This document shows positions 1,449-30,400 of a stretch of 42,083 nt of DNA, in pieces. Numbering within the stretch: the first letter of the stretch is position 1; each line of letters begins with the position of its first letter. The DNA lies in the NCBI GenBank assembly GCA_025201805.1, contig MU619257.1, positions 105,299-147,381 of the forward strand. The letters are read 5' to 3'. The notes under the pieces are model-generated. The model was not told the origin of the DNA, did not search any database, and saw nothing but the letters and a program-made list of their open reading frames with translations. The stretch is from Parasitella parasitica (lineage: Eukaryota > Mucoromycota > Mucoromycetes > Mucorales > Mucoraceae). Both the position numbers and the translations under genes were made by a program.

Positions 1449-1771
1449 GTTGTATTTGTATTAAAAAAGTTTTAATTTTGCGAGATAGGTAGAAAGAGAG
1501 AAAGATGGAGAGAGAGAGAAATAAATGAAAAAGTCATGTTATTTATAGCGAAATTTACTCGGGTCACTTGTCCCCTTAAGTCTGTGCCTCCCCTTTAATT
1601 TTTTCACGCCTAATGATTAATGAGAAATGATTGGATTTCAATGACGGAACAGAGAGTTGATCTTACTAAAGGAGAACAAGAAGAAATTCACAGCCACTGG
1701 TCCAACACGTGCATAATACAGCTTGAACAACAAATATCCCCAAAGTCTTTTTTTTTTTTTTTTTTTTTTTT
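1449..1771. other. Spacer between RBBP4-like and Ecl1-like genes, with poly-T tract
   Basis: No gene is seen. It holds a GA-rich stretch at about 1490-1520, the probable leader or promoter of the Ecl1-like gene. A T tract at about 1748-1773 reads as poly-A directly after the RBBP4-like stop codon on the minus strand, with an AATAAA overlapping that stop. Confidence 0.5.
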
Positions 1772-3465: not shown

Positions 3466-4100
3466 TCTACACCCAAAAGCTCTTATGGGATTAGAGGGGG
3501 GAATAAACAAAACTTCGAATCAGAAACGCGCTCTCTTTAGCAAACAATGGGCAAAAGAGTCACGAGCTTTGGTTGCATGGCAACGCAACACTATACTTGA
3601 ACACTTTGAACAACATGTATACTGAATGTGTCGTTTCCATCGCATCAAATAAGCCTCGAAATCTGTACATAGTCTATCTAGAGCTCACTGTAGCAATCGG
3701 GTACTTATGTCTGACAGCTGGCCCCCAACATTCAACTACACTACACCAAACGCATGAATTAGGAAAACTATATGTCTCACCATGTTCATGCTCTCGAAGC
3801 CGCATTTTGATGAAAAAAAAAAATGGATGGGCAATAGACTTTTAGCCGCCTTTCTTTAATACTCTATCAATATTGCAAGGGAATTTAGAATGATCTCGTT
3901 CAATAGCAGAGTGTACGTATGCAAGGAATATCCATTTTGACAATGATGATCGAGAACATCTTTTTAATTTCGTTTATTTATAAAAAAAAAAATTAGAAAT
4001 TTACATACATTTATACGTTTATACGTTTATACATGTATACATTGGTGTATACAATGGTTCAATATTTTTCTTCTTCTTCTTCTTCTTTATGCCATGTTTG
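3466..4100. other. Intergenic: RBBP4-like promoter side and FMO 3' flank
   Basis: No supported gene. Small open frames on the plus strand (for example 3573-3845) have no recognisable motif. The end near 4000-4080 holds short tandem TTTATACG-type and CTT repeats that belong to the 3' flank of the minus-strand monooxygenase. Confidence 0.5.
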
Positions 4101-5941: not shown

Positions 5942-7227
5942 TCTTTCTTTGAACAATAGAGAGAGAGAAAGAAAAGCCGAAATTAAGCAAGAAAGCAACT
6001 GCTGTCTAAATATGCATCTCTGCAGGAACAAACTGGAAAAGCTACCAAGCAACTCATCACGTGTAATTATGGTAGTAAGAGAGTCATCGAGCTTTTGGCA
6101 AATGCCATATGATTGATTTTGCCTTGTAATCAGCGATATATAAATGCCGCAACATGTTGGTTATGAGTATTGATTGGAAGATACGACCAGCACTATTTGT
6201 GCACGCTGAGTATAGCTAAATATCTACGTTAATCTGTACAAATTTCAGTGTAACTTTCATAAACACACTGCTGTTGTTGGGAAGCTTTTGGAAAAAAAAA
6301 AAAAAAAAAAAAAAAAAAAACAAGGTGCGTAACGTATACAAGGATACGACACGGATGATTTCAGAAGAAGCTTATTCTTGAAAGCATTTTTTAAAAAAGC
6401 GAGCACTAGGACGACATGTGTTGGGTTTACTTTAACAGTGTGTTTCCCCCCCCCCCAATAATTGCACAAAAAATGGTATGATTCCAGGATTGCATCAGAT
6501 CATTTTGGCCAAAATACTGCCAAATAAAAAAAAACACGAGTACAAACAGAACAAAATCGAAATTTACGGAAAAAGGTCTCTGTTCTTTTGGGGCTGGGAG
6601 ATCACAACTTGTATATAATCTTTCCACCCAGCAGCACCCTAATCGCTCCAATCATCCATTATGGGGTAACAATCAGATATATAAATATCGCCTCAAAGTA
6701 GAGTTTTCCGTGGGAAGAATAGTTGCTGTTGTATACGTTTCTGCCCAGATTTCAGCAAATAAGCAGTTGTTTATGAACCGTTAAAAACGAACCAAGATAT
6801 GGGAAAATTGTATATTGACGTTTCGAATTGTCTGTCGATGAGATAAATGGAGGCGGGTTAGACGCTGAACGTCCGTGTCTTTTCTAACTCTTTGTGGTGC
6901 CCTCTGCAGGATGTAAACCGTGTCTGTCGCAAACAAGATGCAACACCACAATGACAGCGCATGGATCAAGTCGACGGAGGCCCGCAGTATACCGTGTGCT
7001 GTGAGAGTTTTGTCATGCGGATCGTTAGAGTTTAATACCCAGCTATCAATGGAACATTCCTTTGATTTACCATGATTTTCTGTTTGTGTGCTATGGATAT
7101 TATATCATAAACAGCCACCACCAAAAAACTAGAAGAGGGTCAGCTGAAACAGCTAATTTCGTATAAAACCAACCTCGTTTTTTTCTTTCCCTCCTTTGTT
7201 TTCTCTTTCAATTATAAACTTTTTACC
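5942..7227. other. 1.3 kb intergenic region between divergent FMO and GPH1
   Basis: No gene is supported. The genes on either side are transcribed away from it, so it must hold both promoters. Visible are a 29-base A run (6292-6320), a C run near 6448-6457, and TATATAAATAT-like boxes near 6131 and 6676. Confidence 0.55.
7176..7227 (+). promoter_or_regulatory. Pyrimidine-rich leader before the GPH1 start
   Basis: A CT-rich tract (about 7176-7210) sits directly before an A-rich start context at the glycogen phosphorylase ATG. Such tracts are common in the leaders of highly expressed fungal genes. The transcription start is not visible from sequence alone. Confidence 0.4.
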
Positions 7228-9903
7228 ATGAGCACCACTCCCACCAGCGAGAAAAGACCCAGACGTCTTTCCATGCCCAAGCTGACACGTCGATTGACCA
7301 ACGTCACTATTCATGTGGACGACGACAAGGACAACCTGGAACATGTCACTACCTCGAGCGTTCCGTCAAGCAAATCCAAGCATATTGCACTAGATCCTGA
7401 GCATTTGAAGGAGTGGAAGCAAGAAATGATACCCAAAAAGAACGACAAGGCCTCGGTCAAGAGGGACATTGTGCAGCACACTGTAGAAACTATTTGTCGC
7501 AATCCTTACAACCTGGATAAATTGGCTGTTTATCAAGCAACCGCCCACACTGTTCGCGATCGTCTTTTGGAAGACTGGAACTTGACGCAACAGGCCGTCC
7601 ACAAAGAAAACCCCAAGCGTTGCTACTATCTGTCCATGGAGTTCCTGATTGGCCGTGCTCTTGATAATGCTCTTCACTGCCTGGAAGTCAAGGATGTTTA
7701 CAAGCAAAGTGTTGAGGATTTGGGCTTTAGATTGGAAGACTTGCTGCAGCAAGAACGTGATGCTGCGTTGGGTAATGGCGGTTTGGGACGTCTGGCTGCT
7801 TGCTATATGGACGCTGCTGCGACGTTGGATTACCCTACTTGGGGCTATGGTTTGCGCTACCAATATGGCATCTTCAAGCAAATGATCAACAGTGATGGCT
7901 ATCAGATCGAAATGCCTGACTACTGGCTCGATTCCAATGGCAGTCCTTGGGAGTTTCCCAGAAACGACATCCGTTACCAAGTTCAGTTTTACGGCTATGT
8001 GGCAACCAAGGTAAATGAGAAGGGAGAGTCTCGCATGTCATGGGAAGGTGGTGATAGAGTTCAAGCTATGGCTTATGATGTGCCTATTCCCGGCTTTGAT
8101 ACCAAGGGCTGCGGCAATATTCGTCTTTGGGCCTCCAAGCCGCTCAAGTCTTTTGATTTTGCCTCTTTCAATGATGGCGACTATGACCGTTCCGTGGCCG
8201 ACCAAAAGAACGCGGAAAATTTAACCTCTGTCCTTTACCCTAACGATAACCATTTGGTTGGCAAGGAGCTCCGTCTCAAACAAGAGTATTTCTTTGTCAG
8301 CGCCTCGCTCCAAGACATTATCCACCGTTTCAAAGGCTCCAACTGTGCCTGGAAGGACTTTCCTGACAAGGTGGCTGTCCAATTGAATGACACGCACCCT
8401 ACCTTGGCTATTCCAGAACTGCAGCGTATTCTGCTCGACATTGAGGGCCTGGATTGGGATGCTGCCTGGGATATTGTCACACGCGTCTTTGCTTTTACTA
8501 ACCACACCGTCTTACCTGAAGCCTTGGAATGTTGGTCCGTGCCCATGATGGAGCATATCCTCCCTCGCCATATGCAAATCGTGTACGACATTAATCTCTT
8601 CTTTTTGCAAAAGGTGGAAAAGGTAAACAGCGATCGGGGCCTGTTGAATCGTGTCTCTATTATTGAGGAAAGCAATCCGCAGCAAGTCCGTATGGCTTAC
8701 CTTGCGGTCGTCGGGTCTCATACTGTCAATGGTGTTGCTGCTCTTCACTCTGACCTGGTGAAAACAAAACTATTTAAAGACTTTGTCAGCTACTATGGCC
8801 CTGAAAAGTTTATCAACATCACGAATGGCATCACCCCTCGTCGCTGGCTCTACCAGGCGAATCCTGCTCTACGTAATCTTATTACCGAAACGTTGGGCTC
8901 CCAACATTGGGTTACACATTTGGACGATTTGAAGGGCCTGACAAAGTATGCTGATAACGCCGAGTTCCAGGCCAAGTGGATGAACATCAAGCTGCAGAAT
9001 AAGGTGCGTTTAGCTAGCTGGATCAAGAAAAACCTGGACATCACTGTGGACCCTCGCTCTCTCTTTGACATTCAAGTCAAGCGTATCCACGAGTATAAGC
9101 GCCAATTCATGAACATTCTCGGTGTCATTTATCGGTACAAAAATCTTCAGCTTCTGTCTGCCGAGGAGCGCAAGGAAATAACTCCTCGCGTGGTTATCTT
9201 TGGTGGCAAATCAGCTCCTGGCTATTACGTCGCAAAGATGGTGATCAAATTGATCAACACTGTCGCTCAAGTTGTCAACAACGATACTCTGATTGACGGG
9301 CTTTTGAAGGTGGTCTATATTCCCGATTATAACGTCTCGCTTGCCGAAATCATTGTCCCTGCATCAGATATCTCGCAGCACATTTCTACTGCTGGCACTG
9401 AAGCAGCTGGCACTTCCAACATGAAATTCGTCCTTAACGGTGGGTTGATTTTGGGCACAGTGGATGGCGCCAACATTGAAATCCGCGATGAAATTGGACA
9501 AGAAAACATATTTATGTTTGGCACGTTGGCTGACAAAGTTGATGATATTCGCCACAAACAGAAATACCACGGTGTTGAAATTGATCCTAATCTCCAAGTC
9601 GTTCTTCAATCAATTCAATCTGGCGAGTTTGGTGGCCCTGAAACTGCCTCTGTCTTTGGCCCTCTTATCAACACTTTGACTTATGGCGGTGATTATTACT
9701 TGATTTCTGCCGATTTTGAGCAATATCTGGATGCTCATGATAAGGTTGATGAGACCTACAAGGATACCTCTGCTTGGGCCAAGAAATCTATTTTGTGTAC
9801 CGCCGGAATGGGCTTCTTCTCTGCCGATCGTGCCACTCGTGAATATGCTGATAAAATTTGGAATCTTAAGCCTGTTAGTTTGAATGGAGCAGCAACTCAA
9901 TAA
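7228..9903 (+). CDS. GPH1: Glycogen phosphorylase
   Basis: A single-exon gene of 891 residues, as long as yeast Gph1. It releases glucose-1-phosphate from glycogen in the cytosol, using pyridoxal phosphate. Seen in order: MEFLIGRAL (about residue 137), DAALGNGGLGRLAACYMDA, WGYGLRYQYGIFKQ, NDTHPTLAIPEL, RIHEYKRQFMN and the PLP-site segment AAGTSNMKF, with the Schiff-base lysine at about residue 733, then LGTVDGANIEI. The N-terminus has two RRL(S/T) sites, S15 and T24, which fit a cAMP-dependent kinase consensus. Yeast Gph1 is known to be controlled by phosphorylation in a similar N-terminal context. Absence of introns contrasts with nearly all neighbours. An AATAAA lies at 9966-9971. Confidence 0.97.
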   Translation: MSTTPTSEKRPRRLSMPKLTRRLTNVTIHVDDDKDNLEHVTTSSVPSSKSKHIALDPEHLKEWKQEMIPKKNDKASVKRDIVQHTVETICRNPYNLDKLAVYQATAHTVRDRLLEDWNLTQQAVHKENPKRCYYLSMEFLIGRALDNALHCLEVKDVYKQSVEDLGFRLEDLLQQERDAALGNGGLGRLAACYMDAAATLDYPTWGYGLRYQYGIFKQMINSDGYQIEMPDYWLDSNGSPWEFPRNDIRYQVQFYGYVATKVNEKGESRMSWEGGDRVQAMAYDVPIPGFDTKGCGNIRLWASKPLKSFDFASFNDGDYDRSVADQKNAENLTSVLYPNDNHLVGKELRLKQEYFFVSASLQDIIHRFKGSNCAWKDFPDKVAVQLNDTHPTLAIPELQRILLDIEGLDWDAAWDIVTRVFAFTNHTVLPEALECWSVPMMEHILPRHMQIVYDINLFFLQKVEKVNSDRGLLNRVSIIEESNPQQVRMAYLAVVGSHTVNGVAALHSDLVKTKLFKDFVSYYGPEKFINITNGITPRRWLYQANPALRNLITETLGSQHWVTHLDDLKGLTKYADNAEFQAKWMNIKLQNKVRLASWIKKNLDITVDPRSLFDIQVKRIHEYKRQFMNILGVIYRYKNLQLLSAEERKEITPRVVIFGGKSAPGYYVAKMVIKLINTVAQVVNNDTLIDGLLKVVYIPDYNVSLAEIIVPASDISQHISTAGTEAAGTSNMKFVLNGGLILGTVDGANIEIRDEIGQENIFMFGTLADKVDDIRHKQKYHGVEIDPNLQVVLQSIQSGEFGGPETASVFGPLINTLTYGGDYYLISADFEQYLDAHDKVDETYKDTSAWAKKSILCTAGMGFFSADRATREYADKIWNLKPVSLNGAATQ

Positions 9904-9965
9904 CCGGTTGGCTCTAGTTTTTATCGACACCTTTTTTTTTTTTTTTGTTTTGTCTATATTAGAAA

Positions 9966-9971
9966 AATAAA
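9966..9971 (+). terminator. Poly(A) signal of GPH1
   Basis: A canonical AATAAA about 63 bases after the GPH1 stop, following a T-rich stretch. It is the most likely cleavage signal for that mRNA. Confidence 0.5.
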
Positions 9972-10165
9972 CAATATTATCCCTGCCTAATTACTCGAAT
10001 CTCGAATGCCAGAAGCCGGCAGTGTTCAAGTTCGACTCTTTTTACACATGAAAAGCTAGTGACAATCTGAATCGTTCTTTAAAACACGTGTGGACATACG
10101 GCCTCAGACATTTTCAAAAGACATGACGATTTCGCAACTCTTTTACAAAGAAACCCAGTTTTGAA

Positions 10166-10987
10166 ATGAACAACACTAGCTTTCAATACCCACCCATGTT
10201 TGATTTCCCACCATTTTTTACGTAAGAACAGGCCTTCAAACGTTTGACAGTGTCCACTAACCTGCTAAGCAATAGACGACAAGCAACCGAGGCAACCTGG
10301 AAAAGCCAAGCAATGCAATGGGAAAACTTGATACTAAGCTATACTCGCCAGAAGCATATATTTCGTCTAGATCTTCATCAGGCCACATCTCCCGGAGGAA
10401 TCGATGTGTTTGAAAACAAAAAGATCAATAGACGTTTATCATTTGAAACGCTGCAAGATATCATTGAGGAAATGGCACGAAAAGGTTTTAAAATGCATTA
10501 TTATATGGCCTACATGTGACGCTCAATTTTATCATGTAGGCACAGCTGAATGGGAAGGGGGGCCGAAAGGACCAAAGAGTGAAGCGTTGATCTACTGGCA
10601 CACTCCAGAAGACTGGGCCAATTTGATTTGGGGCTGGGTAAGGATCGAACAACATGCACTTTTTTTTATTTTATTTGTAGACTCAAATTGATTCTTAACA
10701 GATTAACGAGACAGGTCAAGATAATCAAATCGTTACATATTACGAGATCGCCAATGGCGATTTAGCAGAAGGGCAAGGTAAACAACTTGTTCAAATCGAT
10801 ATAAAAAAAAAAAAAAAAAAAAAAAGTACAGTGTTGTTTTTAATTAATTCTCAATACAGAATTCTTTGAATTGGATAAAGCGATTTTGGGTAAAGCACTG
10901 AATGTTTTGGTGAAGCGAGGAAACGCTCAAATATTCAAAGGAACAGATGAAGACAGCATGGGTGTTAAATTTTTTAGCCCACTATAA
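10166..10987 (+). CDS. VPS25: ESCRT-II subunit VPS25
   Basis: Five exons (10166-10221, 10276-10484, 10540-10637, 10702-10777, 10860-10987) give 188 residues, within the family's 176-202. The N-terminus has the PP-motif region FDFPPFF, which contacts Vps22/Vps36, then WENLILSYTRQKHIFRLDL, NRRLSFETLQDIIEEMARKG, a TAEWEG turn and YWHTPEDWANLIWGW; the C-terminal winged helix ends KGTDEDSMGVKFF. VPS25 forms the two arms of the ESCRT-II Y-complex that sorts ubiquitinated cargo at late endosomes. The exon 2 donor is GTTTTA, unusual but needed to keep the conserved RKGTAEW junction. Its stop is 3 bp from the stop of the convergent aminopeptidase P gene. Confidence 0.92.
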
Positions 10988-10990
10988 GTT

Positions 10991-13107
10991 TTACAATAAA
11001 GGGCGAGTTTCTTTCTTGAGCCATGCAACAGCATCAGGATCAGACGCAATCAAAGGAGTCAATTTCTCAAAGCATTCTTGATGATAATCATTCAGCCATT
11101 TCTTCTCGGCAGGTGATAGTAAGCTTTCATCGATCAAGTTCAAGCCAATGGGTGCCATGGTAACGTGCTCAAAGCCCAAATAGCCTCTGTCTCCAAAGTT
11201 GTTGGGCGTGTCTTGTTTGCGAACGATCAATACGTTTTCAATACGGATACCAAATTTGCCGTCCTCATAGTAGCCAGGTTCTAAGGAAACACATTTAATT
11301 TGGCTACTTTTGACAAAAAAAAAACGACGTTGATCACTCTATACCATCAGTTACGGTCATTCCAGCTGCTAAAGGCGTATTGTTATAGGGAGCTCTGACA
11401 CCGATACCATGAGGACCCTCGTGCACATTAAGGAAAGAACCGACACCATGGCCAGTGCCATGTCGATAATCTAAGCCTTGCTTCCAGAGTGGCATTCTGG
11501 CAAAGGGATCCAAAAGATACCCTGTTGTGCCTGTGGGGAATACAGCCATATCCAGGGCAATATGGCCCTGCAGGACAGCAGTAAAGCATGCCTTTTCATA
11601 ATCAGTTGGGGTTCCAAAGTGCAACGTCCGAGTGACATCGGTCGTGCCATCTTTGTATTGGGCACCAGAGTCGCAAAGGTAGATTTGGTTGGGATCGATC
11701 GTCTTGCAGTTTCCTCTTTCGGGCTCATAATGAATAATAGCACCGTTTGCGCCAGTAGACGAAATAGTGGGGAAAGACAGCCCCACATAGGCCTCTTGAG
11801 AGGCACGCAGTTTCTCGAGATAATCGCCAGCTTCTACTTCGTCCAAATGGTTTCCTGCAGCCAACTGATTCTCGAGCCAGGCAAAGTAGCGGACGAGAGC
11901 AGCGCCATCGCGGATATGACAATCCCTCATGCCCTTTAATTCTCTCTCATTTTTGATAGCCTTGGCATCATTGATGAAGGAAGGCTCTTCCAAGACAAAC
12001 TCGGCACCAACGGCTTCTTCAATAGCTAGGCTCGTGTTGTCGTCGATCAATAATTTTTGGGTAGAGGATGCCAGCGTATTCTTGAGCTGTCGCAAGTCAT
12101 CAAAAATAGCATCGTAAGCCTTCAATCCAACGCCTTCTAAATGGTCGCGAACAGCAGGTGTCAGCTTCTCAGGATTGATGTATAAAGTAGGCTGGCTTTG
12201 GGTGACAACAGCATAGGCGTAAAATACAGGATTGCACTCGACATCTGAGCCTCTCAAATTAAACAACCAAGCAATCTCATCTAATGCGGACACAACGACG
12301 CCAAAGCGATCCTTTTCTTTCAAATGCTGAACGACTTTGCTTAGCTTGTCTTGATGACTTTCGCCTAGAGAATAATATATACAATAATGAGCACTGCCAG
12401 TTGTAACACGAGTATTTAGGCATTTACCTGCAAACTCGACCGAGTGGATAAACACCTTGTCATGGGGTGTCGATGGTCTCTCATCACCCCAGGCAATATC
12501 AACTAGGTTGCGCTCAACAAGCACGAGAACCGAATCCACAGTGCTTAGACGTTTTCTGAGATCATGAGCATCAGCAACAGTAGTCAATGCAGCATCCAAG
12601 CCGATGCGGGATCCAGGAGGGAGTTTCTGCATTGCCTGTTAGTTTCTGGGCGTTTCCAAAGACGCCAACAAATACTTACGTTTACAAGATATTCCTGCCA
12701 TGTGGGGACACCGGGAAGGCCTTGCTTCATCAAAACCCAGTTTTCATCCAATTGCTCGGACGCTTGCAAAAAGTATCTGCCGTCAGTGAATAAAGCTGCC
12801 TCGTCATTTGAAACGATGGCGAATCCAGCAGACCCAGTAAATCCAGAGATCCATTGTCGTCTTTGGTCACAGTCAGCTCCATATTCACTCTAAAATTTGA
12901 TGTCAGTGCATGCTTTATTGCCGTCTTATGCGTGTGGTTCATATTTACTTGATGGGCGTCTTCTGAAGGAATTAAACTAAATAAACATTAGTAAGCCTAT
13001 TTTGGAGATCATACGCTGCAAGCTATTTACAAGGCATCGATATGCTGCTGCTCAGAGTGGAAAAGCGCTCGCAAGGCTTTCAATCTATCGCCAGTATGTA
13101 TAGTCAT
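10991..13107 (-). CDS. Xaa-Pro aminopeptidase (aminopeptidase P, XPNPEP1 type)
   Basis: Six exons (13031-13107, 12949-12976, 12680-12889, 12428-12626, 11345-12364, 10991-11280) give 607 residues, like cytosolic APP1/XPNPEP1 (about 620). It removes an N-terminal residue that precedes proline. The N-terminal domains carry [12 protein letters not shown] and the GFTGSAGFA turn; the C-terminal pita-bread domain has the dinuclear metal ligands in [18 protein letters not shown] (two Asp), [15 protein letters not shown] (His), [12 protein letters not shown] (Glu) and RIENV (Glu). The 63-nt intron at 12365-12427 has no stop and is a multiple of three, so a retained form would add 21 residues; homology to the family favours removal. 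There is no signal peptide. It lies downstream of SIN3 on the same strand. Confidence 0.95.
10995..11000 (+). terminator. Poly(A) signal of VPS25 inside the convergent gene
   Basis: AATAAA 7 bases past the VPS25 stop, lying in the last coding codons of aminopeptidase P on the other strand. If used, the VPS25 mRNA is antisense to the 3' end of that gene. Confidence 0.5.
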
Positions 13108-13123
13108 TTTATAGTGTCGAACG

Positions 13124-13155
<32 letters not shown>
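13124..13155. repeat. 32-base A homopolymer
   Basis: An uninterrupted A run between the SIN3 3' end and the aminopeptidase P start (a T run on the coding strand). Length is likely to vary and to be error-prone in assembly. Confidence 0.9.
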
Positions 13156-13160
<5 letters not shown>

Positions 13161-13249
13161 AGAAACGGAAAGAAAACACGAAAGCGTTCAATTTATAGAC
13201 GTTTGCACTTTAAAGACCAGTTTAATTTATTTACATTACATGTTGCAAT

Positions 13250-16200
13250 TCAAGCAAACAGTGCACGAGTTTCGCCGTCTAATTCAGTCGTGTCTTTTCC
13301 TTTATCAAGCCACGACTTCCACGCATTGTTCCTAGCCGTGCAAGCCTCAGCGGCGCAATCACTTCTTGCAGGTGATCGCATAAAGGCATCTTCGCCTGGA
13401 ACAACATAAAACAAGTGGTATGTATTCCGACATATTTTGTACGCCAAGCTGGACCGAACAGTGTAACTGTCATCAACTGCCTGCTGCATATTTCTAGTGG
13501 TAGTCAGTATTTTTAGATTCCCGCTTTGCGTGCAACCAAAGCTTTCAAATTACCTGCTCAAGAAGCTCTTTTGCAGCTTTTTCTTATCAATGCCAGGAGT
13601 GTCAGTGTCCCAGTTGGTATATTTAGTCACATAATCGGTATACACATCAACATCATTCAATCCAAATGTCTTGTCGTCCTTCTCCAGTAATTGAATGTAC
13701 AATGTCTGTTTCAAGGTATCAAATGCTAGGTTGTACAGTTTTTCGTCCTCGCCTAATGCGTCTGTAACTTCTGAGCGATAGGACTCTATTAGTCGGAGCG
13801 TGCTCTTTTCATGCTCGTGGTTCTTTTTAAAAAAGGACAATATCGTCTGGGCTTTTGAGTCAGTGACAATCTGGTGCAATTGGCGCATAATCGATTGCAT
13901 GAGCTTGTCAATGGTAAACAAAACATACGCCCTATTTCCAAACATGTATCGCGTACATTCTTCGAAAACGGTTTGGTCAAATGCGTCGTCGAAATAGCGA
14001 TCAATAAGTGATAAAAGCGCATGGTAATATCCCTTTTTGAAGTCCATGTAGACGTCTATAGTCTGGTTAGCTGATACACTCACATACGGAAGCAATGCAA
14101 CTTACTGTTGTATTCCTTGCTGGAGACGTCCAGGTCTAAAGCCGCTTTTGTTGATGATTTGGCATCTTCACCGTTCGTCCTGTATTCTCTATCGAGCTGC
14201 TTCATTTGATGGAGGCGATCGTAACAGACTTGAAAGAGGCGAAAGAAGCAGTAAAAGGTGGTGTTGCCAAACAGGTTGTATATCTTTTGCTCCTTGCCGG
14301 CATCTTCAATTTGGTCGTCGTTGTCGTCGTAGTCGTCGTCGTGTGCAGGCAATTGCTGCATCTTGGCTTCCGCTGCCTTGGTCTCTGTGATGGATTTCAG
14401 CTTTTTGGTAAGGACGTCCTTCAGCAAGTTTTGATGGTCTTCATCATTTGATTTCTGTCGCGGAGATCTACGTCCATTTCGGCGGGTATGGCTCGCTCCT
14501 CTTTTGGTCAATCGAGAATCGGCTGATGTATCAACCAAGTGCTGTGTCTCATTGTCTTGGTCGTCTTGGTTCACGTCCTCATCCATAGCATCCTCGTCGT
14601 CGACGTCTTCATCCTCGTCATCCAACATGATGTCTTGCGGCTGTTCTTTTTCTGGAAGGACGTCAGGGACATCAAAGAAAACTGGCAGAAACATCTCAAT
14701 GAAGGCTTTCATCACTGCACAATCCTCAGGACCGTATACCGTTTGACGGTCGAAATAGCTATATAGCACACGGGTCACATCCTTGAACACCTTTTTGCTT
14801 CTAAACGAGTAAAAAAGCTGTGGCTCTTGCAGCTCGGCTTGGTCGCGATGAATAGCCTCAATCTCCCCTACCAGCTGCTTTATGCTCATGTTTTTCTTGT
14901 CGTTGGTTTTAAAGATAACGCCTTGATAATCCAATGCCTTGTAATAGTTTTTGCTGTCAACCTCTCTCCAGACTTTGTTCCACTCACGTTGTAGACGTCG
15001 CCACTCCTCATCCTTCTGTTTAAGGCGTTTTAATACCACAGGTACTGCGTGTGCTGGGCTATTGTGCAGCATATCAATCACTTGGGCTCCCTTTTCACTG
15101 CCATAGATCTTTTTGAGGACCCGCTGGTAGATGGTTTTCGAAGGACCACCTAGCCCAGGGGACACCTTAAAGTCGTTCTTTTCGTCGTCTGTCATCAATG
15201 TAATCTTTTTGTTGATCGGCTCGAGTAACGAAATCGTGTTGAGATTAGCCTCGATATCCAAATCGTAATGGTATCTCTCTTCCTCTACACGGTGGAGTGC
15301 TTCTTCGTAGACATTCTTCTTGGACGCAATGAATCCGCCATCCTCACTTGCCCAAGTAGGATGAGACACGTATTCGTCATTCAGGACCTCCCAGCACAGC
15401 GAATCTCTTCCTGAACATTTCTGTGATTGCCACTATCCCAATAATAATGATAATAATAATAATAAACTCCCGCTTAGTAGGTCATTTCAATACCAAGAAC
15501 AGAACTTACGTGTTTAGGGACAGATCGATAGCTGGGACCATATTCGAAAGCAGAGCCATATTCAATGTTGGATGAAAGCAGCGGTACGTTTTCAATCACA
15601 CGGTCTTTGCCGTCATATCCTACCAATTTTTTCAGCTGACTGAGCAATTCTTTGTTGCTACTCAAGTAGGAATCGCATCGATCAATCAACTGATTTGCAT
15701 CCAACACCTGTTGAGTAAACAGATTAAGCACACGCAGAAATGAAAAGTAGGTCTGCTTGTTTCCAATATGCTTCTTGACTCGGTCAAAAAACTCGGCTTC
15801 TACAGCTGAAATCACAGGCCCATCGACAGGTGCAGTGGGCAACACTATAGGTGCTCGTCTTATGTCTGAAGTTATCGCATAATCCATTTTATTAGGTACG
15901 CTGGTTGCTGGTCTGCCGCTGTGGTGAAGCTTGGCCTTTTTCTGCTTAGGCAAAGGCAAAGATCGCTGCTTTTTCGTCTTTTTGGTAGTTTCAACGACAG
16001 GTGGTTGCGATGTGTCAGGTAGAAATTGTTTAAATTCGGCCAAAAGATCATTGGCGCCATTAAACAGAGTTTGGACTTGCGCATATACTTCTTGGATGGG
16101 CTTTTGCTCCTTTTGATAGGTCTGCAAAATCTCTAAAAACTGCTTATAAGTGTCTGGTTCATTACTAAATCGGTTTTTTATCTTGTTCACATAGTTGATA

Positions 16201-17431
16201 GCATGGTTGAATTCAACGGGTGTTCGTCGAGTAGCATGTTCATCCGGCTGCGCTACAGTCGTAGACGATGTCAGAGGAAGAGGAGACATGGATCGATGTG
16301 CGTGTGATGGTTGGGAACTGTTTTCGTTGACAGACGAGGACGGCGGAACAGACGAGCGTTGTGGACTATGTAGCGATGGAGAAGGATGGTATGTAGCTAT
16401 AGGTGGCAAAGAGCCGTTGGTATTACGATAAATGTTGCTTTGATAAACTTGTGCTGGAGCTGGCGATCTTTGTTGCTGTGGTTGATTATGGTAGTACAAT
16501 GCAGACTGTTCTGGCTGCAGATTGAGTGGTTCGCCACTTGTAGTACTAGTCGTGCCTGTAGGTGTGGTCACTTTGATGATATCTCTAGAATAAGCATCTG
16601 TTGTGCATTCAATGCGGTATCCAGGTGGTAAAAATGTATTGAATCCAGAAATTAATGCCGGATGGCCTCTAAACAAGGTAGAAACTCGTTCAATAACCCC
16701 AGGTGTGTCGATCCTACAGGTAAAAAACCAGTTGCATTTAGTTGCGAGTTGAACAGGATCATTAAGAAATCTTACGCTTGACTCTTAAACTCTTTCATAA
16801 TATCTAAAAATCGATTATAGACCCTGGCTTGGTCAGCAAATTTCATCTTGACTTGATCCAAATAGGTCAAAGCATCTTTTACATTTAAAGGACGATATCC
16901 GCTTGATGAATTGTTATTGGCATTAGGTGAGTTTGTAGCAACAGACAAAGCATTCATGTTCTGGTGAGTTGTTGCTGCATTATTTGTTGCCATCGCAACC
17001 GGTTCAGGAACAGCGCTGCTGGACAATGACTCGATGGGAGTCCTTTGTCTCGAATAATTCGGGGAATCTGTCGATTGTAGCAAAGTCAGTTGAGGCGGAG
17101 GAGTCTCAGATGTGCGACGTCTCTGAAATGAAGGCTGCTCTACTGATGTTACAGGCGTTGCTATTGCTGCTACTGCTGCTACATCTGAACTGGCATCAAC
17201 GGAGTTTGCCGTATTGGTTTGATATGGACTGCTTTCCAATGTTCGTCGTGGGGCAGTAGGTGAGTTGTATGAACTCATGTAAGGCTCTGCAGTGCTAGAA
17301 GCGTTGAGATTGACCAAAGGTCTTCAAAATTAGGCAACCAATATATAAACAAGAAATAATGGCAAAATAGATGGTGGTATATATATTAATATTATTTTTT
17401 ACCTTTTGGGTGAAGGAGAATCTACTGGCAT
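13250..17431 (-). CDS. SIN3: SIN3 transcriptional corepressor scaffold
   Basis: Six exons (17403-17431, 16776-17321, 15510-16713, 14106-15420, 13554-14055, 13250-13493) give 1279 residues; human SIN3A is about 1270. Three paired amphipathic helix domains are seen: PAH1 about 156-225 ([12 protein letters not shown]... [13 protein letters not shown]), PAH2 about 359-425 ([11 protein letters not shown]... [10 protein letters not shown]) and PAH3 about 493-565 ([19 protein letters not shown]). They are followed by the HDAC-interaction region, [31 protein letters not shown], an acidic [10 protein letters not shown] stretch and the C-terminal conserved [18 protein letters not shown] block. SIN3 scaffolds the Rpd3 histone deacetylase complex in the nucleus, which contains RBBP4-type proteins such as the one at 1.8-3.5 kb. 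The intron between PAH1 helices (16714-16775) is in phase 2. Confidence 0.96.
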
Positions 17432-21861: not shown

Positions 21862-23994
21862 TTAAGGGTCGTCTTCATTTGCAATGTTGTCTAAATCAAT
21901 AGAACACAACGAAATAGATGAAACGTCGATATCAGGCAGTAATCCGCCATCAGAAGCAGGTACATAGGTGGTAGACACGCTGGTGGTTATGGTTGGTGCG
22001 TAATCTTGAGTGGGCATCGATGTACGGGGCGCTGTTTCTTCGGTAACAGAGTATCTGCTATCAGTGGATTCACGAGGTAAGTCCTCGGAAACGGATCTTT
22101 CAGGAGGGTGCAAAGGCGTCAGAGGTTCGTCCATAGCAGAAGTAGCGCTGGTGGTAGGCTCGTTGTTTTCTCCGTTTCCTGTAGTAGCGGCAGCGTATGC
22201 CATTTGTTGTTCCTCGATCGGCGTGGCAGCTTCCGCTTGCTGTTGATGCTGTTGCTGCTGTTGCTGCTGTTGCTGTTCAGCATTTTCCGAGGCTTCGACA
22301 GCTCTTAATGCAGCGCTTAGTCCCGGAGAAGCAGGGGCTTCAGTGTCTGTAATCGCGGCTGATTGACGTGAAGGCTGAACTTGTCTCGATTGCGTAGCTG
22401 ATAAATCGCCCACTTGGCCAAGCCTCTTTCGTCTGTTTGCTTTAAATCTCAAGTATGGACGCAACAGCATACCGCGCAATCCAGGCACTTCTGAAGCAGC
22501 AACATCAGCATCTGCAACAATGGTCTCTGATTTACTATCAACAGAACAGTCAAATTTACAGAGGGGACATTCTCCAGACTTTGAAGTTAACCAGGGATCT
22601 GATTACAACAAGTTAGCATGTAAAATATCGGCAACCACCTAAATAACACAGCTTACCGATACAGCTGCAGTGATATTCGTGATGACAAGGCAGCTCGCGA
22701 ACTTGATCTCCAATCTTGAAGGCTTCGAGACACACCACGCACATATTGTTGACAGGTGCATCAAGTTTGATAATAGCGGATGCCAATGAAGGCCTTCTAC
22801 TCAATTTCCTCTTGCCAAAGAAAGGACGCTCATTCTTGCTGGCGGCAGCAGAAGAGGAAACTGCCGTTGTGTTTTTGAGGACTTTACGCTGCTTCTCGTC
22901 TGACAGTACATTTTCCACCTTTCTGCGCTCCTCCTCGTCAGGCAGCGAATCGATGGTTCTTGTAGGAAACTCGTACAATCTGTCCACCGTTAGCAGTGGT
23001 TTACCCATAGGCAGCGCCTCTGCATCGGGAACACGATGACGCTCGACAACCGATTGAAGTCTCTGTCCCTTTTTCCACAAGTATACATGCATGATCACTG
23101 CAATATTCGTACATTACTAACTTGTCCCTTTAATTAACTCTTTTATGTCATTGTATACTTGCCTGAAAAGAATATGCTTGTTCCTAATATAACGATCATG
23201 ACAAGCAGGGTGTACTCCCAGGCAACAGGCTTTATATTGTCAGCCGGCATCAGAGATACACGCACAGAGATGCGAGTTGTGAGGTTGCTGCCATCATCAA
23301 CAGGCATCTTGTGGATAGGCACGCCCGCCATTTTCTCCAGTTGATGGTAAAGCTCAACGCCCACGCCATGCTCAGCATAGTATGCAGGTATAGTTAATCC
23401 GCTCTCTGGTGGCACTCCCTATAAAACAAATCAGTTGGAAATTCGATGATCGTCAAGGGGCAGACTTGTGCTTTACCGCTCTGCGATCTTGGGCATCAGA
23501 ATTCGGGAGGGTATCATACACAATGACACCAATTGCGCCTTCGTTTTCAGCATTTCGAATCTTTTCAACCAGAGTACAACTGCCGCCCTGCTTTTTAACC
23601 AATGCGATTTTGGGCACTCGTGTTGATTTGGCGTCAGCGCTGTAAAACGGAAGAGGAATTGGCTGCTGAATAGCGCCGGGTGAGCATGAATCGTCTCTGT
23701 TGTACAAGACACCGGTTGTTCCGTCTAACCCTGGCGATGGCATATTGTCCAGCGGAGCTACTGTGCGTATGAATCGGTTGGCAGGGACATCCAATGCCAC
23801 TTGGGTGATTGCCGTTGAATTAGAGTAAAGCCATGTTGCGCCTATCAATTGTTAATGTGTGTGTGTCTGAAGCCCACATAAGCAATACCAAAGCTACCTT
23901 GGAGGATGTATGGGTCTTTTTCCTTTAAAAATATGCCTGCTTCGACCAAATTTCCCACAAGCAAGACTAGCGCAGAGATCAAGGCTCTTTTCAT
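21862..23994 (-). CDS. PA-TM-RING E3 ubiquitin ligase (RNF13/Goliath type)
   Basis: Five exons (23898-23994, 23477-23841, 23163-23418, 22657-23097, 21862-22598) give 631 residues. Order: signal peptide (1-20, ALISALVLLVG), a protease-associated lumenal domain with VEKIRNAENEGAIGVIVYD, one membrane helix (TLLVMIVILGTSIFF) followed by basic LWKKGQR, a RING-H2 domain, and a long disordered tail with polyglutamine. The RING reads CVVC...CHHEYHCSC...CPLC, fitting C-x2-C-x14-C-x-H-x2-H-x2-C-x10-C-x2-C. Such proteins sit in endosomal or vacuolar membranes with the RING in the cytosol and ubiquitinate membrane cargo. Intron 3 is GC-AG (donor GCAAGT), inside the membrane segment. The gene is divergent from the DUF202 gene, 296 bp apart. 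Confidence 0.92.
22241..22278 (-). repeat. CAG/polyglutamine tract in the RING ligase
   Basis: CTG/TTG repeats on the plus strand encode a run of glutamines with one His, after the RING domain. It lies in a disordered tail and is likely to vary in length. Confidence 0.85.
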
Positions 23995-24290
23995 GTTTGT
24001 AGGCTGAGCGAGAAGAAAAAGAGAGGTAGAGGCAACCGATCATTATGTTGATTAAACCATATCTGAAAGGGGGGAGGGCAAAGAGGAGGATCTCCTTTTG
24101 CTATTATAGCAGCGGTTGACCCTTAAACTTTTTCCTGATACCACATTAATCATCAGGCTAATAAGCTGCTTGGCATGATCCCGTATTACAGGATAAACCT
24201 ATATCCTGAGTCTTTGTTGGTTCAGAAATTTGGCAGTGCAGAAAAAATTCTTTTTTTTTTTTTTTCTATTTCCCCTCCCAGCCGTAAACA
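23995..24290. promoter_or_regulatory. Short bidirectional promoter region
   Basis: A 296-bp gap between the divergent PA-TM-RING and DUF202 genes must carry both promoters. Visible are a GGGGGGAGGG purine tract, an AGGATA...TATCCT inverted repeat near 24190-24208, and a pyrimidine tract directly before the DUF202 start. Confidence 0.5.
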
Positions 24291-24845
24291 ATGGATGTAG
24301 AATTAAATGCACCAGAGAAATTCATTCTCTGCAACAACGAAAAATGCTCAACAGTATTCAAATACGTAGACGTTTCGGTTCACACAGTCGTAGATGGGCC
24401 TGATCCAAGAGACCATCTTGCAAATGAGAGGAACATATTAGCTTGGATTAGAACTGGCACCACGTTATCGCTAGTTGGTATGGAGATACGCATAGCTCTA
24501 GCATATATACTTGAGAGATGATGTTTTATTAATAGAGCACCTTTGGTAGGTTTCATGACTTTACTGGACATGCCCACAAAGAACTTTGCGCCCTCATACT
24601 CGCTTCCATGGACCAGCGAGCCCGTTTCCGTCAATGCAAAGATTGTATCCTACATCTTTGTTGCCCTTGGTTTTACATGTTTTGTGTATTCCCTGTTCAG
24701 CTACTTTAAAAACCAACAGCAAATCGTGAAAAGATCGCTTTGGGTGGGTCATGGCTGGATGGGGTACACCGTAGCCACTGTTATCATCACTTTTGTTGTG
24801 TTTATTATGGTAATGGCATTGACAGAAATCCGACCGCCTGTTTAA
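24291..24845 (+). CDS. DUF202-family three-TM membrane protein
   Basis: Two exons (24291-24477, 24550-24845) give 160 residues. HLANERNILAWIRTGTTLSL is the DUF202 signature (A-N-E-R-x-x-x-x-W), found in yeast Vtc1 and bacterial YidH-like proteins. Three hydrophobic helices are seen: about 58-75, 97-118 (FVALGFTCFVYSLF) and 134-155 (VATVIITFVVFIMVMAL). Vtc1 is part of the vacuolar polyphosphate polymerase complex, but this protein lacks its usual C-terminal form, so a Vtc1 role is only possible. The intron joins in phase 1 at LVG-F. It is followed by a mobile-element-rich gap. Confidence 0.8.
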
Positions 24846-24900
24846 ACGCTATTATAGTATACCATTTTGTAAATAAATTTTGCTTGCTTGATTCCAAGAA

Positions 24901-25113
24901 TGCACAGGGGACAGAGTTCATTGTTTCTGTAGATCATTTCCTTCCCACTAGTGTGACACAAGTACATACACTAACGTTTTATATTATGAGGATGACACGC
25001 TGCTGTTTAAACTGCAAGAGCCAGCTCAGTCTACGGTTAAGCTCTCGCAGCAGTTGATGGTTGACTGGCAAATGATTTCTTCTGATGACAAGACACGCAG
25101 AATCAGCATATGA
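24901..25113 (+). pseudogene. Decayed reverse-transcriptase fragment (non-LTR type)
   Basis: Two plus-strand frames joined by one frameshift (near 24975) resemble the catalytic core of LINE reverse transcriptases. QGT is followed by VDHFLPTSV (compare INDLP-SV), then LYYEDDTLLF in place of the usual F/Y-A-D-D-T block, then LMVDWQM....DDKTRRISI, like the W-x2-W-x4-N-x2-K-C motif region. The first Asp-Asp pair is kept but the frame is broken, and no endonuclease or poly-A tail is seen. It ends 8 bases before the TIR element. The call rests on motif resemblance only. Confidence 0.45.
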
Positions 25114-25156
25114 TAAAGAGTACAGTGATTTGCGTTTGAAATCAAATTTTTTATTG

Positions 25157-25475
25157 CCATTCAACTAATGATCAAATCCAGCACTTGAATATGATTCCAG
25201 GTAAGACCATAACTAAGAAAGACTGTTGTTATAGTTTCTCTCTCATTTTATTCTAACCTCTTACCCCTTCCATAGTGTGTCCCTTTTAATGTTAACAATG
25301 GATCACTTTTTTTGTACGTTCTTAAATCAGTATATCGCCATCTCTTTGCTTAATTGCAATGATATTGGGTTGGTCTGGTTGATAACGTGCTCGATTCACT
25401 TCTCCAGGGTGATAGAGTTTTTGCTCTATGTATATCCACTTTTTAATTATTTGGCTCGTTTCCATTGAAATGCCT
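25157..25475 (-). pseudogene. Broken RBBP4-like gene fragment inside the TIR element
   Basis: Minus-strand translation gives YHPGEVNRARYQPDQPN and QRDGD, matching [16 protein letters not shown] and TRDGD of the intact gene at 1.8-3.5 kb. Then come LLTLKG, TMEG, YGLTWN and SAGFD, matching [15 protein letters not shown] and SAGFD. There is a stop after DILI, a frameshift, small deletions and a stop after SAGFDH. Between EG and YGL there is a GTAAGA...TTCTTAG intron-like insert that the intact gene lacks. The fragment covers only about residues 95-185 of the family and cannot be functional. Its end abuts the left inverted repeat. Confidence 0.8.
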
Positions 25476-25542
25476 ACGACAAAAAATCACTGAAGATCAT
25501 GGCTATATCATTTATGATCAGCTATTATAATAATACCGTATG

Positions 25543-25858
25543 AGAAAAGCTGGTTGAAAAGATAGTTTACAATCTGCGTTTTTCAAAGAATTCAGCAAAG
25601 ATTCATAGTACAGGGCCCTTAACCACCCAACTTAATGGACGGCCTTGGCAAGTTATGCACCAGAAATAGGCAACATTACGAAAGGAAATAGAAGAATAAA
25701 CCAACTATTACAGATCATCAACCACTTTCAGTAAGCGGCCAAATGCAATCACAAGAACCTAAATCCGGCAAACAATAACAAGAGTACTTTGCATGAATAG
25801 TGCTAGAAAACTTAAAAAAAAAGCAGGTGTCTGCCATCATTTTTAACCAGCTGTAGCT
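25543..25858. repeat. Direct repeat unit, copy 1
   Basis: A unit of about 316 bases, nearly identical over its last 260 bases to 26107-26421. Shared blocks include the stretch from GCCCTTAACCACCCAACTTAA to GCAGGTGTCTGCCATCATTTT, with only scattered substitutions. It has no coding frame that I recognise. Confidence 0.88.
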
Positions 25859-25860
25859 AA

Positions 25861-26100
25861 AAACGTCTAACCAGTCTTCTTCAGAGATTTCAGCAAAAAT
25901 CCGTTTTGGATGGGATTGGCAAGTAACGCGCAAGAAATAGGGACTACGTGAAGGATACACCAGCTATTACAGATCATCAACGCCTTTTAATAAAAGTAGC
26001 CGATGCAATCATTAACAGGAGTGCCTTGTATATATACCTATTGAAAGAAAAATACTGAAAAACCATAATGATGTAATAAACATTTCAAATATAGATTTAC
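25861..26100. repeat. Direct repeat unit, copy 2 (diverged)
   Basis: Lies between the two good copies. It shares blocks such as TTGGCAAGTAAC, CAAGAAATAGG and CTATTACAGATCATCAAC with them, but is shorter and has many changes. It is probably an older copy. Confidence 0.65.
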
Positions 26101-26106
26101 CTCATT

Positions 26107-26421
26107 AGAAAAGTTGGTTAAAAAAGATGACAGAACCTGGATACATTAATAAGTACCAGCGATACTCATAGTACAGAGCCCTTAACCACCCAACTTAACG
26201 GACGGCCTTGGCAAGTTATGCACCAGGAATAGGCAACATTACGAAAGGAAATAGAAGGATAAACCAACTATTACAGATCATCAACCGCTTTCAGTAAGCG
26301 GCCAAATGCAACCACAAGAACCTAAATCTGGCAAACAATAACAAGAGTACTTTGCATGAATAGTGCTAGAAAACTTGAAAAAAAAAAAGCAGGTGTCTGC
26401 CATCATTTTTAACCAACTCCA
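26107..26421. repeat. Direct repeat unit, copy 3
   Basis: About 564 bases downstream of copy 1 and very similar to it, so the duplication looks recent compared with copy 2. A further partial copy follows at about 26422-26480 (ATTAATGCACGAGAAATA, compare GTTATGCACCAGAAATAG). Confidence 0.88.
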
Positions 26422-26665
26422 GTAGATGGAAGTGTTTGATAATTAATGCACGAGAAATAAGGAATACGTGAAAGAAATAGTGAAATTTTGATTGAGCTAA
26501 AAAAAAATTGATTGGTCAAATAAAAAGTTTGATTTTTCAAATGCAAATCACTGTATTCATTTTTGCTATCATGATAAACCTGTCAACATGTCGCTTTTAA
26601 TAGGGAGGAAATAATCTAGACATGGCCGTATTTCCCAATCCTTTACAGTAGCCAGACAAGGCGTT

Positions 26666-27295
26666 TTATTTCTTTTCTTGGGCCAGCTTTGTCATCATGG
26701 CCCTATATATCAGCTTTTCCTTCTCATCCATTGATTTATTAGCTGCTGCAACCTTGGCTAATTCTTTCTTGACAAGAGCGTCTGTGATCCACCTGGTTAC
26801 TTTTCAAATGTACACAGGCTCCCCCCTCGCAACACTGTTTCTTACCTTTGGGATTCAGCTTCAATACCTCTTCAAGTAAGGATTTCGCCAGTTCAACATT
26901 TTCAGTTCGCAAATGGGCCTGGCCCATCCTGAATTTTGATTTGGTGTTGTCAGGATCCAATTCGTTTGCTTTCGATGCATAAAACAAGACACGATCCCAG
27001 CGTTCCTGCTTTGCAAACACTGCAGACATGTTGTTGTAAATCATGACAAGCTGCTCGCTGCTCTGCTTTTTGAATTTCGCCTCCTCCTTTTGCCCTCCTA
27101 CAGCTTTCAAGTGCAAAAGCGCATTGTAATAGTAGGATAATGCTACGGCAAGAATACGATGAATACAAGCACAAGGCCGCCATTTTAAATCAGCAACACC
27201 AACAAACCTTGCTTCAGCTCTTGCTTCTTGAAGGCTTCGTTGCCTTCCAAGCGAAGTTCGACACCTTTATCAAAGTTCTTTTGAGCAGAAGCCAT
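26666..27295 (-). CDS. TPR protein resembling the TPR module of FKBP/CYP40 co-chaperones
   Basis: Three exons (27208-27295, 26846-27142, 26666-26781) give 166 residues. Three tetratricopeptide repeats are seen: LEGNEAFKKQELKQALSYYY, MIYNNMSAVFAKQERWDRVL and NTKSKFRMGQAHLRTENVEL, followed by a basic-acidic helix EKEKLIYRAMMTKLA like the tail of FKBP51/52 and CYP40. Asn and Lys/Arg residues at clamp positions (GNEAF, YNNMS, KSKFR) fit binding of the EEVD tail of Hsp90 or Hsp70, but no isomerase domain precedes them, so this would be a stand-alone TPR adaptor. The intron 1 donor is GTTTGT, weaker than usual. Function is inferred. Confidence 0.82.
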
Positions 27296-27455
27296 TGCCA
27301 ATGTGTGTGAAAAGTGAGAAACAAGTTCAAGTATTTTTTTTTTTTTTTTTCTTTTATTGTTGTTCAGGCTTTTTTTTTTTTTATATGTGTATGGTAGTAG
27401 TATGAAAGTGGCGTCACGTTTGATACATGCTCTTATTACTGTAATGGAGAAACCA

Positions 27456-30400
27456 CTAGAATCCCGATCTAACACGCATGTCTTCAATCTTCTTTTGTAC
27501 ATCAGCAACAGGGCGGTCCAGTTCTTCCGCAATCATACGTCTCTTGTCTGCAGGTAGTGAGTTGTATTGCTCGCACAAATCACCGTCAATGACAGACTTT
27601 ACGGGTATGTAAAAACTTCTATACAGCAAATGGTCTCGTCCAGCTAGGGGCGGTGCTTCAGCACGCATGTGCATTTCTAGCATTTGGAAGAAATCAACGT
27701 CTTCTTTGGACACAAACGGAACATAGATTGAAATTGCACCCAAGAGCGATGTTGTCAAAAGCACCTCACGGCCACCTGACAGCAATGTTGTTCTATGAAT
27801 GGATGTAACAATGTCTCCTGTAAAGTATTCACACAAGTCCTCTACCTTAAAAAAATAAAAAGTTATGAATGCGGGGATCCAGTCAACCAGACAAGAGACA
27901 CATACCTTATTCGGGGCTCCTTGCAAGTAGCCCTTTTCATGATAGATACGGTTGCCTGTCGTATCCTCGTCGATTTCACGAGACACGTTGGCCGGAAGAC
28001 GATTTACAAAAATATTGCCAAATTTATCGCCACCTGCCACGGTTTCGTAATCCACCATGGTCGAAGCTGTCATCCAGCGAGGGATGGTGTCGTCTGCAAA
28101 CACCACAAGGCGATTATCAACGTGTTTGTAAATGACATAGTGTACAGACTCTTGGATGTCTGTAGCAATGATACGGTGGCCCTGTGTATGTAAATTAACA
28201 ATGCAGCTCGGCAATGTCTTGGTCTCGCATTTTCTCAACATCTTCTTTTTGCCAATGTCATAGATACGCAGCGCTTTCCCTGCTCCCACCAACAGCCTAC
28301 CTTGGAAAGCCAGTAGAGCATATGGACATTCATCCAACGGCGTTTTGTGAATAAAGTCGAGGCGAAGAACGCCATTTTCGCCCTGAACGACTCGATAAAC
28401 ACGAAGGTAGCCAGCTGTACATGAGCGAGGCGTCAATGTCACATTTTGTCCAGTGCCAACAACCACAAATTGTTCGTTGGCATCCGTGGCATGAGGATTG
28501 GAACGGAATTGAACCATGGCCACGCTAAATGCAGCTTCGTTCTCTTCGAGTTCAATAAGCTGCAGCGTGGTGCCCTGGAAAGGCTCCACAAGGCGGATAC
28601 AACTCGCCCACTTGCCATCTGCATTGCGCACATTTCCAAACTGCACAGGGTCCAGATTAGTGACATCCGAATCAATCTCGAATCCCTCTTGTTCCTTCTC
28701 AATGATGCCCTTTGCCTTGGCTTCGGGAGAGAATGTTGCATGATCGCTTTCGATAATTACAAATGTACGTGAGGGTGGGTGAAGCGCAAATTTTCTGGGT
28801 GTATATTTCAAGGGGATGGACACTTGGTTAAATATGTTGCCCAATTTTTCTACAGTGAAAATTCTACTAGATGTCAACTATCACACACGGTTACGTCTCC
28901 TCCAGAAGCCTTACCTCAGTGTATTTCCTGCAACAGCCACAACACCTTCAGGGCATTGTTCGCTCACAAATGCGCTGCCATACTCCAACATTTCGTAACT
29001 AAGAGGCGTTAAATACAATCTATTTTGAAATGTATAGCTGACCCAGGGCTTTGTGGACAGCGCCAACACAGCAGGGAGACCTTGGATCCAGATTTTGAAC
29101 AATTTAACGCTCTTGGCACCAATAAATCGAGTTCTGGTATCTGACAACTGGCCTGTGATAGTGTCCAATATAGTGCGAAGTAAAACGCCGTTGGTCAACC
29201 CGATATTCAAGTAGGTAGTACCATGTTCAATACCCGTATCCATCATTTCCACAATACACAGGCTCGAGGGAACGCCTTGCAGAGCTTGCATGGAAATTGC
29301 CTCTAAGCAAGAATCAGGATCCAAGCTCAAAATACGGACAGTCTGGTCCTCACAACCAGCTGCTAAATAGCGAGAACGCTGACGTCCTTCGGGCACATCG
29401 CCCAGGGCCAACGCAGATACAGCTGATGACATTTGCTTGCGTTCCTGGTGTTCGTTTAATTGACCCATATTGTCCAGTTCAAAATAAACGAGCTCGCCAC
29501 TGGAAAGTGCAATGACAACCTGACGACTGTTGGTGGTAGCCTCTCGAATGATCTGGCCATTCGGTGCTTTCCATTCATTGACACGACCGCCAGCCCGAAT
29601 ATGACGAATGCCCCTGGGATGCACTTGCAAGAGAGCATCATCGCCGATTTGCTGCACTGCTAATGTCGGTTCGTTGGTTAAAAATCCAGTGTCCTGTACT
29701 TCTTCCACTGTTTCGCCGATAGACAATACAAGAGTTGCATTAGCAAACGAAACGACAATGTACGCGTGGAATTCGTCGTCGGCCTTGAGTTTGGTAGTCC
29801 ACACAGCACTGGGGTTACCAGGCAGTTCACTCACAGCGAGCTCGGCGGCTTCTAATCCCTGGTTCAAAATGCGGAACGTAGACTGAGATCCTTTACCGCA
29901 TATAGAGTAGATTCTAGGCGATTCTTCGTCGGCGAGATTCAAGACTTTGGAGTCCATTAGTGGTGCCATGGAGCTCAATTCGTCCACAAGCGACAAGTTC
30001 TTCAAAGGACGAGGCTTAAAGTAGACTAAAGGCCTTTCTTCTTGCTCGGCTTCAGCCTCCATGTAATCTGCAGAGGATATTTCTGGGTCATCGTCATCAT
30101 CACCGAGGCTCTCAAAAAAGTAATGGTGGCTATACAAAGCATTAAAACTCGATGCTTTCCCTCCCCCCACACACACACAAAAAGCCCATTGAAACTTACT
30201 GGTTACCAAATTCGTTTGCAACAAACAGGAAGCCGCTTTTCAAGATGCAGAGAGATGTGGCAATGGGGATGGTGTCAAAGTACTTTATGGTCAAGCCATT
30301 CACGACACCTTCTTGGTGATCCATTGTTACCTTGTAAAGATCGCCTTCTTCTGATTGCAGCAAAAAGAAGAATTGCGTCTTTTTGTCCACGCGCATTCTG

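Follow-up and report, generated by a model that had tools for sequence, protein, structure and literature searches.

Structure of the element

The window analysed here is a stretch of 42,083 nucleotides of the Parasitella parasitica genome (C21:105299-147381; genome of 30.7 Mb in 232 contigs). The fungus belongs to the Mucorales lineage, in agreement with the early-diverging fungal host named in an earlier note on this DNA. At 25121-26555 the window contains a candidate chimeric element, in which Tc1/mariner-like terminal inverted repeats (TIRs) enclose a decayed piece of an RBBP4-type WD40 gene and copies of an interspersed repeat (Table 1). The earlier note had described paired ends with an RBBP4 piece, and this was confirmed at the same place; it had missed that the piece lies on the minus strand, that an intron is retained, and that the interior from 25467 onward is largely a separate repeat.

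Table 1. Features of the candidate element, in window coordinates
Feature	Position	Strand	Remarks
Candidate chimeric element	25121-26555		About 1.4 kb between inverted repeats with TA at both outer ends
Left terminal inverted repeat	25121..25164	+	TA at 25121-25122 included
RBBP4-type WD40 gene fragment, decayed	25168..25465	-	Part of one exon, intron, part of next exon
Retained intron-like stretch, 52 nt	25213..25264	-	GTAAGA...TTTCTTAG; boundaries placed by eye
First unit of repeat of about 340-395 bp	25467..25861	+	Also at C9:158379-158709 (77%) and C219:18768-19123 (73%)
Further partial units of same repeat	25862..26480	+	Unit limits approximate, by eye
Right terminal inverted repeat	26508..26555	-	TA at 26554-26555 included

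The left end, read from 25121, is TACAGTGATTTGCGTTTG..AAATCAAATTTTTTATTGCCATTCAA, and the right end, read as the reverse complement from 26555, is TACAGTGATTTGCATTTGAAAAATCAAACTTTTTATTTGACCAATCAA. A repeat search returned 27-nt arms with 89% complementarity, and local alignment of the two ends spanned 44 and 48 bp with a single mismatch in the first 18 positions, so that the inverted repeats of about 36 bp with TA at both ends, as initially described, were borne out at greater length. The alignment score of the pair (31.5) exceeded the maximum of 24.0 obtained from 100,000 random TA-anchored pairs taken from the window outside the element region. The locus has the terminal inverted repeats of a Tc1/mariner element, and TA is present at both outer ends as read from this one genome. 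When the left end was compared with 12 others (the right end and 11 of 20 end loci fetched from the genome), its best match was the right end of the same element; the right end matched best an end on contig C61 that lies beside a DDE_3 transposase frame (32.5), followed by the left end (31.5). Ends of the hAT type were rejected, as the two 8-bp flanks of the CAGTG ends are not alike (AAAGAGTA / TATTCATT) and no 8-bp target duplication is present. The lack of a visible transposase was also upheld: the longest stop-free interior frame has 81 codons, no interior DDE_3 match was among those listed, and none was seen in a Pfam scan of interior frames that was limited to the RBBP4 reading.

The RBBP4-type fragment

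The RBBP4-type fragment reported beside the left repeat proved genuine. In a tblastx comparison of five sequences, the piece matched the RBBP4-type gene of the window itself at E 3e-16, with 28 identities in 52 codons, and DNA identity to that gene was 87/127 (69%). A whole-genome protein search at E<=1 returned four places, namely the piece itself and RBBP4-type genes on C21 (the gene in the window, E 7e-20), C6 and C77. Among solved structures, 23 distinct sequences matched the piece, all named RBBP4, RBBP7, RB binding protein 4, Caf1 or p55, histone acetyltransferase type B subunit 2, or Mis16; the best match (E 5e-12) covered residues 115-186 of the RBBP4 chain of 2xu7, which we take to be the human protein. 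Pfam found no domain in the 73-residue reading of the piece. Similarity was strongest at 25313-25438.

The fragment was confined to the space between the repeats. In tblastx of the three RBBP4 genes against 23001-28500, all matches at E<=0.02 fell within 25168-25465, and the best match outside the repeats, at 26676-26750, reached only E 0.085. The left limit of similarity lies three bases from the aligned end of the left repeat (25164 versus 25168), with an outermost block of six residues, and the right limit lies one base from the next block, with the last ten residues weakly similar. A host gene fragment is therefore enclosed by TIRs, as in Pack-TYPE elements. The idea that the RBBP4 gene of the window was duplicated locally long ago, and that the ends were added later, was rejected, since no significant RBBP4 similarity exists outside the repeats. 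Just outside the left repeat, the plus strand carries a 46-codon open stretch at 24973-25110 (YYEDDTLLFKLQEPAQSTVKLSQQLM...), which was rejected as an RBBP4 piece in its own right because it had no PDB match at E<=10 and no Pfam match at E<=1.

The piece is decayed: three TAA stops interrupt it, the splice junction carries one extra base and a deletion follows YGLTWN in its last part. No intact protein was seen to be encoded by the element. Between the codons for EG and YGL lies the 52-nt GT...AG stretch, and the RBBP4 genes on C6 and C77 have GTAAGTG...AG at the same place, where the C21 gene is uninterrupted. The intron at the position used by the paralogues indicated that the piece was derived from genomic DNA of an intron-bearing copy and not from mRNA, and a retrocopy of RBBP4 was rejected on the same ground.

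Donor and age of the RBBP4 piece

The RBBP4-type gene of the window spans at least 1886-3392 on the minus strand, 22 kb from the piece. It lacks the intron common to the C6 and C77 paralogues and the piece, which seems to have been lost there. As the C21 gene has no intron at this position, it cannot, in its present form, have been the donor. Judged on its 69% DNA identity and on the intron missing from that gene, the piece did not arise by recent copying of this neighbour.

At codon positions 1, 2 and 3, the piece differed from the C21 gene at 10, 8 and 22 sites in 41 codons, and at 16, 13 and 28 sites when the 52 aligned codons were all counted. The corresponding numbers were 15, 5 and 24 between the C21 and C6 genes and 12, 6 and 27 between the C21 and C77 genes. 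The excess at third positions suggests that much of the divergence of the piece would have accrued under coding constraint, while the sequence was functional, with decay coming later.

The wider comparison used the best 120 of 2721 homologues. Seven of the eight best BLAST rows fell into the same paralogue group as the C21 gene (P0001-P0007), and Absidia cylindrospora was sixth. In a tree built from 38 rows, made up of 36 of those 120 homologues together with the C21 segment and the piece, the piece was left unplaced on a branch of length 0.94, and a topology test by the approximately unbiased method (AU) rejected neither a clade of Mucor type (p-AU 0.51) nor one of Absidia type (p-AU 0.09). 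Given the concentration of differences at third codon positions, the piece might stem from an RBBP4 lineage that this genome itself does not carry. Parasitella parasitica parasitises other Mucorales through cell fusion, and a Tc1 element with a chromatin-gene fragment of the host species would then represent a footprint of DNA passing from host to parasite, a scenario that we regard as very improbable.

The interior repeat

From 25467 onward, much of the interior is made up of units of one repeat, and 26166-26385 is 96% identical to 25603-25822. Beyond the copies on C9 and C219, no other place in the genome matched at E<=10. The C219 match begins at 25467, the same base as the start of the repeat, and a run of 29 A follows about 30 bases past its end, while the C9 copy is bounded by 7 A on one side and 17 A on the other. 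Given such A runs at their ends or close to them, these low-copy repeats on C9 and C219 are SINE-like (resembling short interspersed nuclear elements); neither has a TIR within 1.5 kb on either side. The possibility that the interior is a structured RNA was rejected, as 24800-26700 had no Rfam match at E<=1.

Distribution of the ends and link to a transposase

Related ends recurred in the genome, and so the absence of other copies, which the earlier note had named as evidence against its own reading, was not found. The pattern TACAGTGATTTGCNTTTGAAA had 26 genome matches at <=3 mismatches, two of them the focal ends, against 6 for the reversed pattern, and 7 at <=1 mismatch, five of them outside the window. 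A second end pattern, without the TA, had 41 matches, including the two focal ends, against 11 for its control. Related ends were about four times commoner than the reversed-pattern control, and because the genome matches exceed such controls, the ends belong to a family. A relic resembling the right end was found on C52, where 67 bp of subterminal sequence are 79% identical.

The 20 fetched loci were scanned for a second, inward-facing end with a weight matrix; the scores are approximate, because the right end of the window was shifted by one base in it. A second inward end above 20 bits was found at L051, and one of 17.9 bits at L046, compared with a shuffled maximum of 16.7. A diverged partner end (4/21 mismatches) lies about 1.05 kb off at L036. 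At 7959-8001 of L051 (C153:47268-47310), two end copies about 7 bases apart form a 43-bp near-palindrome, a TIR-only element.

Some of the related ends lie close to DDE_3 transposase matches, in line with the Tc1/mariner-like nature that the earlier note had given to the ends. DDE_3 had at least 163 hits in the genome, with 150 of 301 candidates scored. A listed hit lay within 1 kb on the inner side at 3 of the 39 non-focal end matches, on C61 (313 bp), C71 (798 bp) and C178 (841 bp), where chance would give 0.2 (163 hits in 30.7 Mb), or 0.4 if all 301 candidates were real. The best of these links was on C61, whose end was also the closest to the right end of the window among those compared; the links on C71 and C178 were looser. 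The C61 frame comprises 223 residues (DDE_3, E 5.6e-23) and has D-34-E spacing, counted by hand on the translation; it stops 223 bp short of the TIR's outer end. The C61 locus looks like a relic too, because no left end was found there and the frame upstream of the transposase has no Pfam match. A full-length autonomous relative with two ends was sought and not found on C61, C71 and C49.

Origin of the element and alternative explanations

Our findings suggested a defective, non-autonomous element of Tc1/mariner type in which an RBBP4-type gene piece and interspersed repeat copies took the place of the original interior, and we favour this explanation as a reasonably probable one. The anatomy of the locus and the confinement of the gene piece fit a Pack-type Tc1/mariner element, which makes that identification probable, short of proof because the element is single-copy and no complete autonomous partner was found. 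For the route of capture, and for any movement afterwards, we infer the following. Once an element had been excised or had suffered an internal break, gap repair would have been interrupted; it may have switched template to unrelated loci and left filler between the two repeats. The filled element could then have been moved in trans by the DDE_3 (DD34E) transposase of its family.

Several observations weigh against this explanation. The earlier note had looked to multiple copies carrying the RBBP4 fragment, and this expectation failed, as the genome search gave only the piece itself and the three genes, with no second chimera; the chimera is thus single-copy and gives no sign of movement as a unit. 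The single copy lowers the claim of capture without excluding it, since most Pack-Mariners (PMC8903248) are low-copy as well. Judged from the controls, chance may account for about one in four of the loose end matches, and in the weight-matrix scan 19 of the 20 fetched loci had no second inward end above 20 bits. None of those loci holds a kilobase-sized element with two ends kept as well as the focal pair, or an element of this end type in which two good ends enclose a transposase. On C61 and C71 no left end was found, a mirrored pair of end matches on C46 has its DDE_3 hit about 240 bp off on the outer side, and the next closest transposase, on C49, is without such ends in the 2.4 kb fetched. 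The likeness of ends and interior is also compatible with later insertions.

The locus might instead be an accidental composite, in which two independent solo ends or tiny TIR-only elements flank an old RBBP4 pseudogene and never formed one moving unit. The mostly solo state of the other end copies agrees with such an origin, as do the 43-bp TIR-only element on C153, the lack of a second chimera in the genome and the position of an RBBP4-type gene 22 kb away on the same strand. The two ends, however, are alike over 44-48 bp, and the left end matches no other compared end as well; moreover, RBBP4 similarity starts within a few bases of the left repeat and is not significant beyond the repeats, although an old pseudogene would be expected to continue there. 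We therefore consider this composite rather unlikely, while giving it more weight than the other alternatives. Somewhat less likely still is late filling: an ordinary small Tc1 element, itself non-autonomous, would have received the RBBP4 DNA and the repeats once its mobility had ended, as nested insertions or repair filler, with no mobile capture. At two other loci the interior repeat is found on its own, with runs of A at its ends or close to them, and may insert independently; the junction between RBBP4 and repeat (25466/25467) falls where the C219 match begins. The intron speaks against late insertion of an RBBP4 retrocopy, and hardly any sequence of the element's own is left between the left repeat and the RBBP4 piece. 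Finally, the likeness to RBBP4 could be a chance reading of AT-rich sequence and TIR, given that Pfam finds no domain in the piece and the forward frame beside the left repeat yields nothing, but the strong minus-strand matches in tblastx, the genome protein search, BLAST to homologues and the PDB leave practically no room for this.

Other features of the genome and window

At L057 (C128:45600-53400), two 2,377-bp inverted repeats that are 99.9% identical occupy positions 583-7172, each with an open 486-residue frame matching DDE_3. The 1.8 kb between them holds a 254-residue frame without a Pfam match, and TA is present at both outer ends (TACTG...CAGTA). Similar inverted pairs of transposase matches, spaced by 4-8 kb and scoring the same or almost the same, occur for example on C25, C30, C46 (two), C66 and C74. 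Loci of this type may be long-TIR or composite Tc1 elements with cargo, and are possibly more interesting than the focal element.

Within the window, the RBBP4-type gene and frames of Sin3 (PAH, Sin3_corepress, Sin3a_C) lie within 15 kb of each other, at 1886-16673. In other organisms, the RBBP4 and Sin3 products sit in the same deacetylase complex. A bromodomain frame and a Bromo_TP frame are found at 37.1-38.8 kb. The nearest frames around the candidate element are one on the plus strand that ends at 24845 and weakly matches cytochrome b561, and a TPR frame on the minus strand, from 26739.

Relation to known elements and significance

Elements of this kind are already known. Pack-Mariner (Pack-TYPE) elements of rice and maize (PMC8903248) sometimes draw on several source loci per element and mostly have low copy numbers. 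Like them, the element described here has non-autonomous Mariner-superfamily ends with TA and gene-derived DNA between; unlike them, it lies in a fungal host, in one copy, with a strongly decayed fragment that is 69% identical over 127 bp to the nearest resident gene. In Pyrenophora tritici-repentis, an open reading frame sequestered between Tc1/Mariner TIRs occurs in 46 members and was attributed to transduplication (PMC3538342). That case shares with ours a fungal host, the Tc1/Mariner superfamily and a non-transposase frame between TIRs, whereas our element is a single-copy pseudogene without a transposase. Within the Mucoraceae, the DD34E transposon Tc1-MP1 has a homologue in Parasitella parasitica (PMC9977792); it comes from the same fungal family as our element, which may be of that Tc1 type, and differs from it in having 141-bp TIRs and its own transposase.

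Among the papers listed in literature searches, none had a title on Tc1 gene capture in Mucorales, which is not proof of absence. The earlier description of capture by a Tc1-like element as unusual was too strong in view of the precedents in rice and maize (PMC8903248) and in Pyrenophora (PMC3538342). Its interpretation stood for the ends, their family and the RBBP4 piece, and fell for the multiple chimera copies and the rarity. The element probably represents a new, though decayed, case of a kind already known, here in a Mucorales genome.

As a single decayed copy, the element gives no evidence of an effect on its host. The retained intron and the codon-position evidence make the question of the donor testable with the genomes of relatives. 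This one decayed example suggests that an intron-bearing piece of a host gene can come to lie within Tc1/mariner-type elements of an early-diverging fungus, and gene shuffling by small TIR elements would then extend beyond plants and ascomycetes.
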